A stretch of DNA of 56,378 nucleotides from Gemmatimonas sp. (lineage in GTDB: Bacteria; Gemmatimonadota; Gemmatimonadetes; Longimicrobiales; Longimicrobiaceae): the NCBI GenBank assembly GCA_009380025.1, contig WHSP01000013.1, positions 1 to 56,378 of the forward strand, in the 5' to 3' direction. The position numbers and the translations under genes are program-made. The notes beneath the pieces were generated by a model. That model was not told where the DNA came from and did not search any database. It saw only the letters and a list, made by a program, of their open reading frames with translations. Shown in pieces: positions 3,513 through 14,330 of this stretch (position 1 is its first letter; each line of letters opens with the position of its first letter).

Positions 3513-3650
3513 TGGGATAACTTCTGGGATAGGTTCGCCCCCCAGACCCCGCTTTTTCGATCTCCAATCTCCGGCAGGCTCTTCCAGAACATCGAGGTTT
3601 TACGCCATTTTGCCGACTTTACCGCCCCCCGCCGAGTCGACTGTTAATCA
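3513..3650 (+). repeat. Right copy of the ~137-bp direct repeat
   Basis: Mate of 114-250, same orientation, about 3.4 kb away. It ends in CTGTTAATCA, which is also the anticodon-loop part of the tRNA-Asn 3' half that continues to 3683. The two copies bound the three-gene operon and the hsdR remnant. The arrangement is that of attachment-site flanks left by one or more integration events. Confidence 0.75.
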
Positions 3651-3683
3651 GAGGGTCGTAGGTTCGAGTCCTACCGCGGGAGC
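3637..3683 (+). tRNA. tRNA-Asn(GTT) 3' fragment, probable attachment site
   Basis: The sequence reads as anticodon loop CTGTTAA, then variable loop AGGGTCG, T-arm TAGGTTCGAGTCCTA and an acceptor strand CGCGGGAGC. This matches the 3' half of bacterial tRNA-Asn. No D-arm or 5' acceptor strand precedes it; the upstream sequence is instead the direct repeat. CCA is not encoded. tRNA 3' halves are classic targets of tyrosine integrases, and a truncated integrase lies immediately beyond. I read this as an attachment-site remnant rather than a functional tRNA. Confidence 0.7.
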
Positions 3684-3692
3684 TTCAAGAAG

Positions 3693-4005: not shown

Positions 4006-4140
4006 CTATTCCTCTCTTAACGCTTCCAACGGCTCGATCCGCAGCCCGCGCCGCGGGACCGAGCGCTGCGAGAAAACCCACGACCGCCATGAGCGCCGCG
4101 GCGGCGGACACGAAGACCACCCCCTGCCCGCCCGATGCCA
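4006..4140 (-). pseudogene. ADOP-type permease 3' remnant (inverted)
   Basis: On the minus strand a hydrophobic helix (SAAAALMAVVGFLAALGPAAR) is followed, after a one-base frame change, by GLRIEPLEALREE and a stop at 4006. This is the signature end of ADOP/MacB-FtsX permeases: the last transmembrane helix, then RxxxxxPxxALRxE. Only about 45 residues of an ~800-900-residue family survive, and the frame is broken. A second ADOP tail lies at 11155-11361 on the opposite strand. The rest of 3967-4488 shows no further gene. Confidence 0.6.
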
Positions 4141-4488: not shown

Positions 4489-7413
4489 ATGTTCAATTTA
4501 CTCGTCATCCTGGTCCTCGCCTTGCCCGGAGCGCTACTTCTAGTCCGATCGGTAGGAAGGAGGAGCGTTGGCGGGGTTATCTTTGCCGCGGCTCTCGTGC
4601 TGGCGCCGATCGTACTGGCAGGAAGCGCGTTCTCGTTCGCGTACGATTACTACTGGTTTGAGGAACTCGGTAGAATCGAGAGATTCCTGACGGAGATCCA
4701 GTACCGCTGGGGCATCAGCGCCGTTGCCAGCTTGCTGAGCGCATCGATTGCCGGTGTCCTCGCCTGGCACGGGAGAAGCAGCGGGCGGGGCCTGCTCGCG
4801 GGGCTCGTCGCGGGCGTAGTCGGCTTTGGGCTCGGTAGCACCAACTGGGACAAGGTCCTGCTCTGGCGCTCCAGTTCCCCGAGCGGTCAGGTGGACCCCC
4901 TACTCGGGCGCGACCTGACATTCTATATGTTCGACCTGCCGGCGCTCAATTTTGCCCTCACCCTGCTCAGCATGACAGCTGTTGTGGCTGTCGTTGCCGT
5001 ATTGCTGTTTCCTTTCGGAATTTTGGCGACTGCCGAGGCGCTCCGGCGATCTGGACCGGAAGGCATATTGGATATCAGTTCAGGAAAGACGATCCCGCAG
5101 TCTGGCCCGAGGCGTGGCGGACGTCTCGAGGAAATCCTGATGCGGTTTAGCGGCAGAGGCGGGGCCCGGCCAGTCCAGCACCATGATCTCGCGCAAAATT
5201 CCACGGCGAACCCTTCGACGACCAAGAGCGAAGAACGAGTCGCCGAGAGTCGGCCCGCGTCGATCCGCATCCTTGGCGTTCTCGCGATCGTGATCGCAGC
5301 CAGTTCTTTCCTGGGTCGCTATGATCTGATCGTCTCGGGTACCGGCATCGCCGGCGGAGCAGGATGGGTGGACATGAATGTGCGCTACCACCTCTATGCG
5401 GTCGCGGCAGGGCTCTGGCTCTCCTGGGGACTCTTCCTGATCGTCAGAGCCCGATCTGCCACCCACACTCTAGCCGGCGCCGGATTCGGCGTGCTATTCG
5501 GCTTGACCTTTGTGTTGTTTGCCGGCGTTTCCGTCGCCGCCCAGCGACTCCTCGTCTCACCCAATGAAGTTGCACGCGAAGCGCCGTACATCGAATTGGG
5601 CATCGAAGGAACCCGCGTCGGCTTTGGACTGGATCGGGCTGAAGAGCGCGATTTTCCGGCGGACACAGAGGCGTTCGGGCCCGAGTTGCTGGCGAACAAC
5701 TCTTCACTGATGCATGAGGTTCGTCTGTGGGACTATCGTGCGCTCGAGCAGGTGTACGAGCAGTTACAGGCAATCCGACTCTACTACGACTTCACCGATA
5801 TCGACGTCGGCCGGTATGAAATCGGGGGCGAAACGAGACAGATCATGCTTTCGGCCAGGGAGCTGGACGCGGCCCGCCTACCCTCTCGAACGTTTGAGAA
5901 CGAGCGCATCCGGTACACGCACGGCCACGGCGTGGTGGCTTCACCGGTCAGCGAGTTTACCCCATCGGGCAGACCCAACTTTCTGGTGCGCGATCTCCCG
6001 GCAACCTCGTCCGTGCCCGAGCTCGAGATCACGCGCCCGGAGATTTACTACGGACAGCTGACCAATGGGCACGTATATGTCGGCACGACCGAGGACGAGT
6101 TCGGTTACCCGAGCGGCGAGGAGAACGTCTACGAGCGGTACGAGGGCACGGGTGGCGTGCCTCTCTATTCGTTCACCAGGAGGCTGACGGCGGCTTGGAA
6201 TCTGGACGGACACCGCCTCTTCACGTCTCGCTATTTCACATCCGATAGCAAGGCGCTATACGAGCGAAACATCTTCTCGCGAGTTCGGCGGCTTGCTCCA
6301 TTCGTCACCTGGGACAATGACGCCTATATCGTGATCGCCGAGGGCCGATTGGCCTGGATCATCGACGGATACACGACCTCCAACGGCCGGCCGTACTCGC
6401 AGACGCTCAACTTCTGGGGCCGCCCCGCCAACCACGTGCGAAACTCGGTGAAGGCGGTGGTGGACGCCTACAACGGCTCGGTGGACCTGTACCTGTTCGA
6501 CGAAGAGGACCCGGTGGCGAGCGCGTGGGCGTCTGCATACGAAGGACTCTTTACGCCGGCGAACGAGATGCCGGAAAGCCTCCGGCGCCACATCCGGTAT
6601 CCGGAAGCTTTGCTAGTGGTTCAGGCGAGCGTGTACTCGCGCTATCACATGCAGAACGTCCGGAACTTCTACAACCAAGAAGATCTCTGGCAACGTGCTA
6701 CGGAGCTATATCACTCCGATCCGCAGACCGTTGAGCCGTATTACGTCATGTGGCAGGAGCCGGGAACTACGCACGCACAGTTCTCTCTGATGCTCCCGTT
6801 CACCCCGCGCAATCGCCAGAACATGATCGGTTGGATGGCCGGACTCGCCGACCAGGAGCACTACGGGAGGCTCCTTACCTACCAATTCCCCAAGGGAGAG
6901 CTTGTTCCCGGCCCCCAGCAGTTCGAGACGAAGATCGACCAGGACCCGTTCATCTCGGATCGTATGACGCTGTGGGGTCAAAGTGGCTCGAGAGTGATCC
7001 GGGGCAACGTCCTCTCCCTCCCGGTCGGAGAGACGCTGATTCATGTAGAGCCGATCTATCTCGAAGCCGAGAATTCCGCCTATCCTGAACTTCGACTCGT
7101 CGCCGTGATGCACGGAGAATCGTTCGCGTACGGAGAGACCTTCGAGGAGGCGATCAGCAACCTGCTCAACAATGCAGGCAGTAACGCGGCGTTTACGTTG
7201 AGAACCGGCGAGGAGCCTGAAGAAGATCTTGAGCGCGAAGATGGAGTCTCAGCCAGCTTGCCAACAACCAACCAGGCAGACCTCGCACGGCGTGCGAGCC
7301 AGGCCTTTGAGTCTTACCTCGAACTCCAGGCGGAAGGGCGCTTCGAGGAAGCGGCGCGGCACCTGACTGAACTGAGGAATTCCCTCGATCAGCTCGTGGG
7401 AGAGGCGCCCTGA
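4489..7413 (+). CDS. UPF0182 family membrane protein
   Basis: 974 residues, the usual length of UPF0182 (COG1615). The N-terminal third has about seven hydrophobic segments, starting with LLVILVLALPGALLL and including the family hallmark YDYYWFEELG at about residues 44-53. A soluble Lys/Gln-rich insert follows at about 180-255. The large C-terminal region is extracytoplasmic in character and carries the conserved LWDYRALEQVYEQLQAIRLY stretch (about 415-434) and PYYVMWQEPG. The end is a Glu-rich, coiled tail. The family's function is unknown. The gene stands alone, with no operon partner closer than 250 bases. Confidence 0.9.
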   Translation: MFNLLVILVLALPGALLLVRSVGRRSVGGVIFAAALVLAPIVLAGSAFSFAYDYYWFEELGRIERFLTEIQYRWGISAVASLLSASIAGVLAWHGRSSGRGLLAGLVAGVVGFGLGSTNWDKVLLWRSSSPSGQVDPLLGRDLTFYMFDLPALNFALTLLSMTAVVAVVAVLLFPFGILATAEALRRSGPEGILDISSGKTIPQSGPRRGGRLEEILMRFSGRGGARPVQHHDLAQNSTANPSTTKSEERVAESRPASIRILGVLAIVIAASSFLGRYDLIVSGTGIAGGAGWVDMNVRYHLYAVAAGLWLSWGLFLIVRARSATHTLAGAGFGVLFGLTFVLFAGVSVAAQRLLVSPNEVAREAPYIELGIEGTRVGFGLDRAEERDFPADTEAFGPELLANNSSLMHEVRLWDYRALEQVYEQLQAIRLYYDFTDIDVGRYEIGGETRQIMLSARELDAARLPSRTFENERIRYTHGHGVVASPVSEFTPSGRPNFLVRDLPATSSVPELEITRPEIYYGQLTNGHVYVGTTEDEFGYPSGEENVYERYEGTGGVPLYSFTRRLTAAWNLDGHRLFTSRYFTSDSKALYERNIFSRVRRLAPFVTWDNDAYIVIAEGRLAWIIDGYTTSNGRPYSQTLNFWGRPANHVRNSVKAVVDAYNGSVDLYLFDEEDPVASAWASAYEGLFTPANEMPESLRRHIRYPEALLVVQASVYSRYHMQNVRNFYNQEDLWQRATELYHSDPQTVEPYYVMWQEPGTTHAQFSLMLPFTPRNRQNMIGWMAGLADQEHYGRLLTYQFPKGELVPGPQQFETKIDQDPFISDRMTLWGQSGSRVIRGNVLSLPVGETLIHVEPIYLEAENSAYPELRLVAVMHGESFAYGETFEEAISNLLNNAGSNAAFTLRTGEEPEEDLEREDGVSASLPTTNQADLARRASQAFESYLELQAEGRFEEAARHLTELRNSLDQLVGEAP

Positions 7414-7669: not shown

Positions 7670-9730
7670 ATGCACTACGAGGCAGACAGGGCGCTGGAGT
7701 TGCTCCGCGCTGGCTGCGCCCTACCGGAAGCCGGATTCCGCGAAGGACAAGAAGAAGCCATTCGTCAGGTCGTCGACGGAGACGGTCGGCTCCTCGTAGT
7801 GCAGAAGACAGGATGGGGCAAGAGCTTCGTCTACTTCATCGCGGCGAAGCTGCTTCGTGAGGCAGGACATGGTCCGGCGCTGCTGATCTCCCCGCTTCTC
7901 GCCCTGATGCGAAATCAGCTGGCCGCCGCGGGTCGGATGGGCGTACGAGCCGCGACGATCAATTCCGACAACCAATCCGACTGGGAGCAAGTGGAGAAGG
8001 CAGTCGCCCGAAACGAGATCGACATCCTGCTCGTCTCGCCGGAGCGACTCGCGAATGAGCGCTTCCATGAACGGGTTCTTGCCCTGGTGGGTGCTCGGGC
8101 TTCGCTTCTCGTGGTCGATGAGGCCCACTGCATATCCGATTGGGGACACGATTTCAGGCCGCACTATCGGCTCGTGGACAGGACGATCCGGATGCTCCCG
8201 CCCAACCTGCGCGTTCTCGCGACAACGGCGACCGCGAACGACCGAGTTGTCGAGGATCTGACTGAGGTTCTCGGGCCAGAGCTGTTGATCTCACGCGGAG
8301 ACCTGAATCGCCCCTCGCTCCTACTCCAGACGATTCGTCTGGTCACTCAGGCGGAACGGCTGGCGTGGCTGGCTGAGCGACTGCCGGTGCTTCCCGGTAG
8401 CGGTATCATCTATACGCTTACGAAGCGGGACGCCGAGACGGTCGCTGCCTGGCTGCGTTCACGCGGTCTGAACGTCGAGGCATACACCAGCGATACGGGA
8501 GACCTGCGCGGCCAGCTCGAGGAGGACTTGCTGGCGAATCGCGTCAAGGCGCTGGTCGCCACCTCAGCGCTGGGGATGGGGTACGACAAACCGGATCTCC
8601 ATTTCGTGATCCACTTCCAACGACCCGGGTCGGTGGTCACCTACTACCAGCAGGTTGGGCGGGCTGGTCGCGCTATCGATGCAGCATATGGCGTACTCCT
8701 TAGCGGCGATGAAGATGCCGATATCACCGACTACTTCATCAATTCGGCGTTTCCGACGCCCGACGAGGTGAACACCGTAGTTGACGCTCTCGAGGCGTCG
8801 CCGGAAGGGCTCACATCCAAAGAGCTCTTCCGCCAAGTGAACATCAGTGGACGACGGATAGAGAACGCACTCCAGCTTCTCTCCTTGGAGTCGCCGGCCC
8901 CGATCGTAAAGGAAGGATCGAGATGGCAGCTAACAGTCGCCGACTTGAGTGAGGCGTTCTGGGATCGGGCTCGACGGTTGACGCAGCTCCGCAAGGCCGA
9001 GCAGGCAGAGATGCTCCGGTATCTCGAGCTAGAGAGTGGGCATATGGAGTTCCTCCTGCGGGCTCTGGACGGGAGTCCGGAAGCAGTCGTCCCGCCAACC
9101 ATCCCGCCGCTTTCCACCGAGATCACAGAGGAGCACATTCGGGAGGCGGAAGAATTCCTCCGGCGGACCAGCATCCCCATCGAGCCTAGACGTCAGTGGC
9201 CCGCTGGAGGGCTTCCGCGGTATTCCGTTCGCGGAACGATCCCGACTGAGCTTCGGCCATCTCCCGGGAGGGCGCTTTGTTTCTGGAGGGATGCTGGCTG
9301 GGGCCGTCTCGTCCGCATCGGGAAGTATGACCAGGGGCACTTTTCCGACGAGATCCTTCCCGCGGTCGTAGACTTGATAGGCGCTTGGTCCCCCGATCCG
9401 GCGCCGCAATGGGTGGCGTCGATACCGTCTCTTCGACACCCACGGTTGGTGCCCGGGTTAGCGCGCGGATTGGCAGAGGCTCTTGGCTTGCCATACCATG
9501 ACGTGTTAGGGTGGACCGAAGAGCGCCCTGAGCAAAGAACGATGGCGAACGGCGTCCAGCAGGCTCTCAATCTCGACGGTGCCCTAGCGATTTCGGGAGA
9601 GGTTCCGTCCCGCCCGGTCCTTCTGGTAGACGACATGGTGGACTCACGCTGGACGTTCACGATCGCTGGTTGGCTACTTCGTTCGGCCGGCTCAGGTGTT
9701 GTGTACCCCCTGGCGCTATCGCACGCCTGA
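7670..9730 (+). CDS. RecQ-type DEAH helicase fused to a PRTase-like domain
   Basis: 686 residues. The N-terminal two-thirds is a RecQ-like superfamily 2 helicase: motif [13 protein letters not shown] (~45-56), motif [21 protein letters not shown] (~147-165), motif [11 protein letters not shown] and motif [13 protein letters not shown] (~325-335). The RecQ zinc-binding cysteines and an HRDC domain are not visible. The last ~170 residues differ: they end in a phosphoribosyltransferase PRPP-loop-like motif, [15 protein letters not shown] (~651-665). A ComF/Apt-like PRTase fold C-terminal to a RecQ core is unusual. The stop is 8 bases before the DprA-like gene, so the two are certainly co-transcribed. 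Likely work is DNA unwinding tied to a nucleotide-linked reaction or sensor. Confidence 0.85.
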
Positions 9731-9738
9731 TCTCAACC

Positions 9739-11040
9739 ATGGACGCTTCCGTTTCTCCGAACACTCAGGCGATCCTACTGCTGACGGCCCCGCTGATCGC
9801 GGGGCGCAGGGCGCCGGATTTCAAACTCCTGTCACCCGGTGAGTATCGGCAGCTCGCTCGGCGTCTTCATGACCACGGGAGAACGCCCGCGGATTTGGTC
9901 CGGTCCGGAAGTGAGGAGGTCCTGGCGGAATGTGCAGGACCAATCGACCTGCAACGTCTTCGCGACCTGCTGTCTCGTGGATTCCTCCTCAGCCGAGCGG
10001 TGGATCGCTGGCACTCGAGATCGATCTGGCTCGCGAGTCGAGCAGACCCGGCTTATCCGGACCGGATCCGCCGCCGTGTGAAGGTGGCCGCGCCACCCCT
10101 TTTCTACGGTTCGGGCGACCCGGCGCTCCTCGATTCCGGCGGTCTGGCGGTCGTGGGATCGCGACATATCAACGATGAGATAGCGGCCTATGCCGAAAGG
10201 ATCGGGAGCCTGGCGGCTGAGGCAGGGGTGACCATCGTCTCGGGAGGCGCGCAGGGGGTGGACCAAGCAGCGATGCGAGGTTGCGCGGAGGCCGGGGGTC
10301 GGGTTGTGGCCGTACTTTCTGACCGACTGGAACGCGTCACGCTCGATCGCGCTACCCGCGATCTACTTCGGGACGGACGCCTGACTCTGATCAGCCCGTA
10401 TGACCCTTCAGCCCGGTTCCACGTAGGTCACGCTATGGCGCGCAACAAGCTCATCTACGCCCTCGCCGACACGGGGCTCGTGGCGAGCGCTGAACTGGAG
10501 AAGGGGGGAACGTGGGCGGGGGCTGTGGAGCAGCTCAGAAAGCTGCATTACGTGCCCCTCTTTGTGAGGGAGAATGGCATTGCTCAGCCTGGCCTGCACG
10601 GCTTGCTGGGGATGGGCGCCCAGGCATTGTCGGAACCGGCGTCCCCGGATGAATTGATCGCGAGGATATCGAATGCCGGGGCATCGGACGGATACGCGGC
10701 GACCGGCCAGCGGACGTTGTCACTAGGTGAGAAGCCCGAACCGGGCTACCCAAAGCGGCCCGGAGCCCCCGTCCCTGTCGCGGCAGACCAGCCGGCTCCC
10801 CGTCAGGTTTCGAAGCATGGCGACGTGCCGCCGGAAGTACGAGATCGGCTTCTCAGCTTCAATAGGCCGTTCTCGCTAGCCGAGATAACCCAGGAACTGC
10901 AAGCGCGCCGGCCGCAGGTCTTGAAGTGGTTGAATCAGTTGATGGAGGAAGGCGTTCTCGAGAAGCAGAAGAAGCCGGCGCGGTACAGATGCACGCAGGC
11001 GAGTCTTTCTCTCTTCGGGGTAGACCCATTGCCGTCATGA
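9739..11040 (+). CDS. DprA/Smf-like DNA-processing protein
   Basis: 433 residues from the ATG at 9739; an ATG at 9670 would add residues that merely shadow the helicase. The Rossmann-fold DprA core spans about residues 125-320: [13 protein letters not shown], then [20 protein letters not shown] and [17 protein letters not shown]. These are the ssDNA- and nucleotide-binding motifs of DprA. A C-terminal winged-helix-like domain follows ([20 protein letters not shown], ~378-397). Canonical DprA loads RecA on incoming DNA. Here the tight pairing with a RecQ-PRTase fusion and the absence of topA or xerC neighbours suggest a specialised paralog, perhaps in defence against foreign DNA. Confidence 0.85.
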
Positions 11041-11154
11041 TGTCGGATGTATCGATGAAACCTGCGGGCGAGACGTCAGCGGGAAATTGGCATCCGGACC
11101 GCGATCGGCGCACCTCGTCGTGCAATCCTCCGATCGATCTTCTCCCGCGCTGGG

Positions 11155-11361
11155 GGTCAACTCGCTCTGGGCCTTTCCGTCGGGCTCGTGGCGGTACTCC
11201 TGCTCGATGTGGTCGCCGGGGGCGGGCTCCTGGGAAGCCATAGCACCGTCATTCTGCCCGGCTTCGGATTCCTCATGCTCGTCGCCGGCCTGCTCGCCGC
11301 GCTCGGTCCCGCCCGACGGGCCCTTCGAGTGCAGCCTACCGACGCCCTGCGAGCGGAGTGA
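11155..11361 (+). pseudogene. ADOP-type permease 3' remnant
   Basis: Open frame reading GQLALGLSVGLVAVLLLD, then a hydrophobic helix FLMLVAGLLAALGPARRA and the terminal RVQPTDALRAE before the stop at 11361. This is the last ~68 residues of an ADOP/FtsX permease. No upstream part of such a gene exists between here and the dprA stop at 11040, so it is a fragment. It is oriented opposite to the remnant at 4006-4140, and both share the AALGPA-R block. Confidence 0.7.
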
Positions 11362-13763: not shown

Positions 13764-14330
13764 CGGCACGCGCCGGCTGGAGGCTACGACGACCTCGAGT
13801 CGCCTTGGGGGTTCGCCGAAAGGTTGACGGCTGACCTGCAGGAAGTGGCGCAGGACAAGCACCTTCGAGTCTCCGCTCCCGGCCCGGCACCAGTGCCCGC
13901 CGACGACGCCGCGCCTCTTCTACCGCCGCGCAGCGAGGGTGGGGTCACGCGGGCGGATCGCCTCTCCGGCGACATCGGCTATATCGATGTCGTTGGCTTC
14001 CCCTCGCTCGCCGTGTTCAAGTCGGCTGTCGATCAGGCGATGGCGTCGCTCGAGGACACTGAGGCGCTGATCATCGACGTGCGGCGCAACGGCGGCGGTA
14101 GCCCGGAGAGCGTCTCCAATCTCGTGAGCTACTTCCTCGACGCGGGTGCGGAACCGGTCAAGATCAACGAGTTCTTCATGTCGGGTGGCTACGTCGCAGC
14201 CAAGGAACCACAGGTTCGAAGGAACGAATTTCACGGGTATCCACTCACGCTAACATACCGGATGGCGTTTCGCATCCATCCCACCGCCCTCGTCGGACGG
14301 GGGCGGGCGGTCGGGGCGCAATGTCTCTGA
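13764..14330 (+). pseudogene. S41-family peptidase fragment
   Basis: The open frame begins just after a stop at 13761 and includes SPWGFAERLTADLQEVAQDK and HLRV, the helix preceding the S41 tail-specific protease core. GDIGYIDVVGFPSL and ALIIDVRRNGGGSPESVSN follow; the latter is the conserved substrate-groove strand. The catalytic Ser/Lys region, which normally follows by about 60 residues, is absent, because similarity ends near residue 140 of the frame. No start codon or signal peptide is present, so both ends are missing. This is a dead internal fragment of a ~400-500-residue secreted peptidase. Flanks at 13615-13763 and 14331-14429 show nothing else. Confidence 0.6.

Follow-up and report, generated by a model that had tools for sequence, protein, structure and literature searches.

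The two adjacent genes described here, which lie in a window of 56,378 nt (positions 1 to 56,378 of contig WHSP01000013.1 of Gemmatimonas sp.), are PsyrTA, alias RqlHI, and encode a RecQ-like helicase with a C-terminal PRTase toxin domain and a DprA-fold antitoxin. The original description of PsyrTA is reportedly that of Sberro et al. in 2013, and RqlHI was reported independently from extraintestinal E. coli (PMC4670107). As the family is already known (2013-2015), the window copy adds one member to it, fairly ordinary apart from a missing zinc site. We consider it quite probable that the pair is a toxin-antitoxin operon in which the PRTase toxin is restrained by PsyrA, a behaviour that would be transferred to the window by homology from E. 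coli RqlHI.

The helicase-PRTase protein and its DprA-like partner

The PADLOC model of PsyrT matched the first ORF with E=2.5e-261 (aa 1-685) and that of PsyrA the second with E=3.4e-117 (aa 5-418), the runner-up families, DpdF helicases and ShosA, being far weaker. PADLOC lists the PsyrTA family as a defence system. The psyrT stop codon and the psyrA ATG are separated by 8 nt on the same strand (Table 1), a spacing that, like the coordinates of both genes, had been given exactly in a first-pass annotation of this DNA. The link between DprA and PRTase-type proteins, which that annotation cited as a possible immunity theme from comparative genomics, already has a name and experiments behind it, as PsyrTA/RqlHI (PADLOC; PMC4670107). 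Full-length PsyrT relatives are 50-68% identical to the window PsyrT.

Table 1. Features of the psyrTA pair (positions in the window).
Feature	Position	Strand	Basis
psyrT / rqlH, RecQ-like helicase fused to C-terminal PRTase (toxin)	7670..9730	+	PADLOC PsyrT; 686 aa
RecQ helicase core, aa 1-345	7670..8704	+	TIGR00614; DEAD and Helicase_C Pfam matches
Walker A, TGWGKS	7799-7825	+	helicase core motif
DEAHC box	8111-8161	+	helicase core motif
Region corresponding to the RecQ four-cysteine zinc motif, cysteine-free here, aa 455-488	9032..9133	+	78 aligned PsyrT proteins
PRTase domain with ComF/PurF/APRT-like fold, aa 505-686	9182..9727	+	AlphaFold model and PDB fold matches
PRPP loop, aa 649-664; D654, D655 and D658 retained	9614..9661	+	alignment with the loop in all relatives
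psyrA / rqlI, DprA-like antitoxin	9739..11040	+	PADLOC PsyrA; 433 aa
DprA/SLOG Rossmann core of PsyrA, aa 92-294	10012..10620	+	PF02481 E=1.3e-31; model matches DprA 3uqz and ShosA 8zva
PsyrA C-terminal winged helix (aa 365-420), preceded by disordered linker	10831..10998	+	weak TrmB/HTH_27 matches; helices and hairpin with pLDDT ~95

The helicase part of PsyrT scored 220.6 bits against the RecQ-family subfamily model TIGR00614 (NCBIfam; aa 22-351), above the cut-off, and fell far under the cut-off of the NCBIfam model of the housekeeping RecQ. The QxxGRAGR motif is present, the helicase motifs align with those of the relatives, and none of the 154 columns conserved in at least 90% of the family deviates in the core. 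The RecQ core seen in the first-pass annotation is thus supported, as is the absence of an HRDC domain, since neither RQC nor HRDC was matched in the window PsyrT by Pfam.

By sequence alone the PRTase is weak (Pfam Pribosyl_synth, E=0.1; PDB sequence search, E of at least 0.07). An AlphaFold model of aa 468-686, built from 80 aligned sequences (the structure-prediction alignments omit rows from annotated plasmid records), reached a mean pLDDT of 91.5, and all 18 PDB matches found with it by Foldseek at E<0.001 were PRTase-fold proteins (APRT, H. pylori ComF, PurF, PRPP synthetase), the highest query TM-score among them, 0.50, belonging to H. pylori ComF. The PRTase fold that had been suspected in the C-terminus of PsyrT is therefore found, and the motif that had prompted the suspicion aligns with the same PRPP loop in every family member. 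The acidic residues D654 and D655 of the loop are kept, and so is D658, which by analogy with HPRT we take to be the likely general base. A sister PsyrT group (L005, L006 and L007, relatives in genomes G028, G049 and G052) carries Gly instead of Asp at this last position (DDxVGSRWT), so that the catalytic role of the position may differ there. The window loop reads DSR where E. coli RqlH has DSG; the Arg was considered as a mark of inactivation and rejected, Arg being the commoner residue in the family. Among the 59 PRTase columns conserved to at least 90%, 7 deviate in the window protein, the fourth highest count of 76 proteins, compared with a median of 1.5 in the family and with 0 of 154 in its own helicase core; the domain therefore appears mildly divergent, and its activity could be altered.

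The predicted structure of the 433-aa PsyrA (pLDDT 87.9) resembles pneumococcal DprA (3uqz) and E. coli ShosA (8zva). PsyrA stayed below the cut-off of the canonical DprA model (TIGR00732, 81.1 bits against 191.15), its C-terminal winged helix differs from that of DprA, with no Pfam match to DprA_WH (PF17782), and the ShosA models of PADLOC matched it weakly (E=2.6e-22, against 3.4e-117 for the PsyrA model). A second, housekeeping dprA, whose existence bears on the first-pass view of the gene as a DprA paralog, was found on contig C475 of the same genome (G000:C475; 252.6 bits), where it adjoins the Obg GTPase gene and encodes the full set of HHH, DprA core and DprA_WH domains; ComEC is encoded on contig C155. 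PsyrA is therefore not the competence DprA, and the view of it as a paralog distinct from the housekeeping protein holds.

A branch of PsyrT proteins without the zinc site

After the PsyrT helicase core, the motif C-x(16-17)-C-xx-C-xx-C, which we take to be the RecQ zinc site, is present in 43 of 78 aligned proteins and absent from 35, i.e., from the window PsyrT and 34 others. In the test for the canonical RQC zinc site none of the four cysteines was found after the window's helicase core, as had been claimed from the first reading of the sequence and as the alignment with relatives bears out. The motif is retained in E. coli RqlH and in cyanobacterial and other relatives outside the zinc-free clade. 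The 35 zinc-free proteins, which come from many phyla, are all separated from the rest by a single branch in the whole-protein tree (support 100) and again in a helicase-core tree built without the zinc columns (support 99); on a tree of the PRTase only, the distribution of the site needs two changes. Since RecQ itself carries the motif, loss rather than gain is the simpler reading of the pattern.

We found no description of the zinc-free clade in the literature searched, the coverage of which was incomplete. A clade-level loss of the zinc site is a variation worth noting within a known family; the branch is diverse, and its simpler helicase core might be more tractable. One speculative view, to which we give little credence, is that the RecQ motor of this clade no longer serves to unwind duplexes and has become a DNA sensor or translocase whose sole role would be to gate the PRTase: the helicase would read the state of the DNA, the DprA-fold partner would hold the PRTase, and the PRTase would deliver a toxic reaction based on phosphoribosyl.

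Distribution, surroundings and loss of the toxin gene

The PRTase alignment, run against 84,980 species genomes, picked out 80 loci, and in all 77 that extend far enough psyrT is followed directly by psyrA on the same strand; in the remaining 3 the sequence stops at or near the end of PsyrT. The neighbourhood survey that had been proposed for the pair thus gives the order T-then-A in many phyla, and the figure of 77 of 77 applies to this branch, as the query was built from paired proteins. The median gap between the two genes, on the same strand in 83 loci, is 3 nt, and 29 of these loci have an ATGA-type overlap of 4 nt. Solo RqlH without RqlI was found in an Arthrobacter and on a haloarchaeal plasmid, and Gram-positive bacteria are reported to carry solo RqlH (PMC4670107); the PsyrT/RqlH family is thus not always a toxin-antitoxin pair.

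Phyla are thoroughly mixed on the PsyrT tree, which points to a spread of PsyrTA by horizontal transfer. On an E. coli conjugative plasmid (L104, 3989-7506) the pair sits within a type I restriction operon, with the S gene on one side and the R gene on the other, and Nostoc carries the pair on a plasmid. Near-identical pairs of the L104 type occur in 53 of 5426 E. coli genomes, one copy with an IS3-like insertion. In S. meliloti pSymB Ak57 (L107) the PsyrT is 64.5% identical to that of the window, psyrA is seemingly split into two frames, and IS elements and an integrase lie on the same stretch.

The first-pass annotation had described the pair as flanked by gene remnants. This applies to the downstream side, with a C-terminal fragment of an FtsX/MacB permease at 11086-11361 (a sub-threshold Pfam match) and a truncated S41 peptidase at 13824-14327 (64 of 165 profile positions covered), but not to the immediate upstream side, where an intact, full-length UPF0182 gene occupies 4489-7413; farther left lie part of a tRNA-Asn gene and what may be a permease fragment. 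The latter, at about 4044-4093, is a 50-nt inverted match, 74% complementary, to the FtsX fragment. The former, at 3640-3684, is a 3' part of tRNA-Asn(GTT), identical to a complete gene on contig C410 except for the first bases; a further truncated copy lies on contig C54, and a 116-nt direct repeat (114-229 and 3513-3628, 86% identical) adjoins the one in the window. This truncated tRNA looks like an integration-site scar, in which case the inserted element would lie left of 3640 and not around the pair. Rfam gave no matches on the first 20 kb of the window. Nothing usable as an empty site was found in the genomes searched, because neither of the flanking genes (UPF0182 and phosphoesterase) has a close relative in synteny there. 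Among the 20 other window proteins scanned there was no convincing PADLOC match to a defence gene, and no competence gene was found among 20 window proteins scanned. The nearest neighbours of the 80 related loci gave scattered matches to restriction and other defence genes, any one family accounting for at most 2 of 131 proteins; as this survey had no control set, an enrichment of defence islands was set aside as evidence.

Within the window's order, PsyrA is present in 16 of 154 genomes (4 of 61 genera) and strong PsyrT matches in 12 of 154, all 12 of which also encode PsyrA; a strong PsyrT match without PsyrA was found in none of the 154. Five of the 16 PsyrA genomes lack a working PsyrT. 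PsyrA is kept in G046 (L138), where psyrT is frameshifted, in G074 (L148), where about 377 codons of psyrT are deleted out of frame, in G038 (L142), where an Rpn/YhgA-like gene (PF04754) stands at the place of psyrT, and in G036 (L141), where nothing recognisable remains there; in G072 (L150) the last 20-25 psyrT codons remain and PsyrA is also frameshifted near its start. The copy of G061 may likewise be frameshifted at its start. These genomes are draft assemblies, and some of the frameshifts may be errors. Loss of the toxin with retention of the antitoxin, and never the reverse, fits the pattern predicted by toxin-antitoxin logic and lends it independent comparative support outside E. coli.

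Proposed mechanism, alternatives and known systems

In E. coli, the toxicity of RqlH is abolished by deletion of the PRTase or by the exchange D663A in the PRPP pocket, requires the DIVD segment equivalent to the PRPP loop of the window protein, and is relieved by RqlI, which interacts physically with RqlH; helicase-dead RqlH mutants are more genotoxic (PMC4670107). By analogy, PsyrT would be an ATP-driven, RecQ-like 3'-5' DNA translocase that ends in a ComF-like PRTase. This domain would be the harmful part, which probably acts with PRPP on DNA, on nucleotides or on some other target. PsyrA, encoded on a transcript shared with PsyrT and combining a DprA fold with a winged helix, would bind PsyrT and restrain its PRTase. 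Disturbed DNA metabolism, whether through replicating phage, DNA damage or loss of the operon, would lift this restraint, and the PRTase would then arrest the cell. We infer such a trigger, such a PRTase substrate and an anti-phage benefit of PsyrTA. A role of the window pair in phage defence is plausible, since the DprA and PRTase system of P2-like phages protects against T7 and lambda (PMC9122126) and since mobile contexts recur among the relatives; against it stands that there is no clear defence island in the window or at the nearest neighbours of related loci. One study detected no protection by native E. coli PsyrTA against the phages tested (PMC12409345).

The two proteins might instead form a module for DNA repair or recombination that acts jointly on damaged or stalled DNA, the toxicity of PsyrT alone being a by-product of uncoupling. 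In M. smegmatis RqlH is reported to function as a helicase, in a paper whose authors propose a cooperative DNA function (PMC4670107), solo RqlH is common in Gram-positives, and the helicase motifs of the window PsyrT are perfectly conserved. We nevertheless regard this explanation as unlikely, in view of the sporadic, phylum-mixed spread (16 of 154 genomes of the order), the location of pairs on plasmids and within a restriction-modification operon, the loss of the toxin while the antitoxin is retained, and a deletion of rqlHI in E. coli with no observed fitness cost (PMC4670107).

That the window operon is a decaying copy, no longer functional and lying amid gene debris, is suggested by the fragmentary genes nearby, by the 7 deviating PRTase columns and by broken psyrT genes in related genomes; both ORFs are, however, of full length without frameshift, and the PRPP-loop acids, the helicase motifs and the conserved residues of PsyrA are intact, which makes decay rather improbable. 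Even less can be said for a module of natural transformation in which helicase, ComF-like PRTase and DprA echo ComFA, ComFC and DprA and process incoming DNA. The fold comparisons do place ComF among the best matches of the PRTase and DprA among those of PsyrA, but the genome encodes a separate DprA beside obg and a ComEC, both on other contigs, the scanned window proteins include no competence gene, and the winged helix of PsyrA is of a different kind; we hold this explanation to be very improbable.

As the toxin-antitoxin operon that we favour, the window pair shares its domain set and gene order with RqlHI of extraintestinal E. coli, where the DprA-like gene directly follows the helicase-PRTase gene (Russell and Mulvey 2015, PMC4670107). 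The E. coli plasmid pair of the RqlHI kind is about 47% identical to the window in PsyrT and 31-32% in PsyrA; E. coli RqlH has the four-cysteine zinc motif that the window PsyrT lacks, besides the difference in the PRPP loop. In ShosTA and in the DprA and PRTase system of P2 phages (PMC9122126), a DprA-fold partner likewise stands beside a PRTase and the ShosA fold (8zva) is similar to PsyrA, but the PRTase is a separate protein, whereas in the window it is fused to the RecQ helicase. The ComF-like PRTase fold and the DprA fold are also common to the competence proteins ComFC and ComFA/DprA, which, unlike the pair, are encoded by separate genes with housekeeping roles. The PsyrT and PsyrA models of PADLOC are matched by the two window proteins over their whole length, clade-level sequence changes being the sole difference found from PsyrTA.
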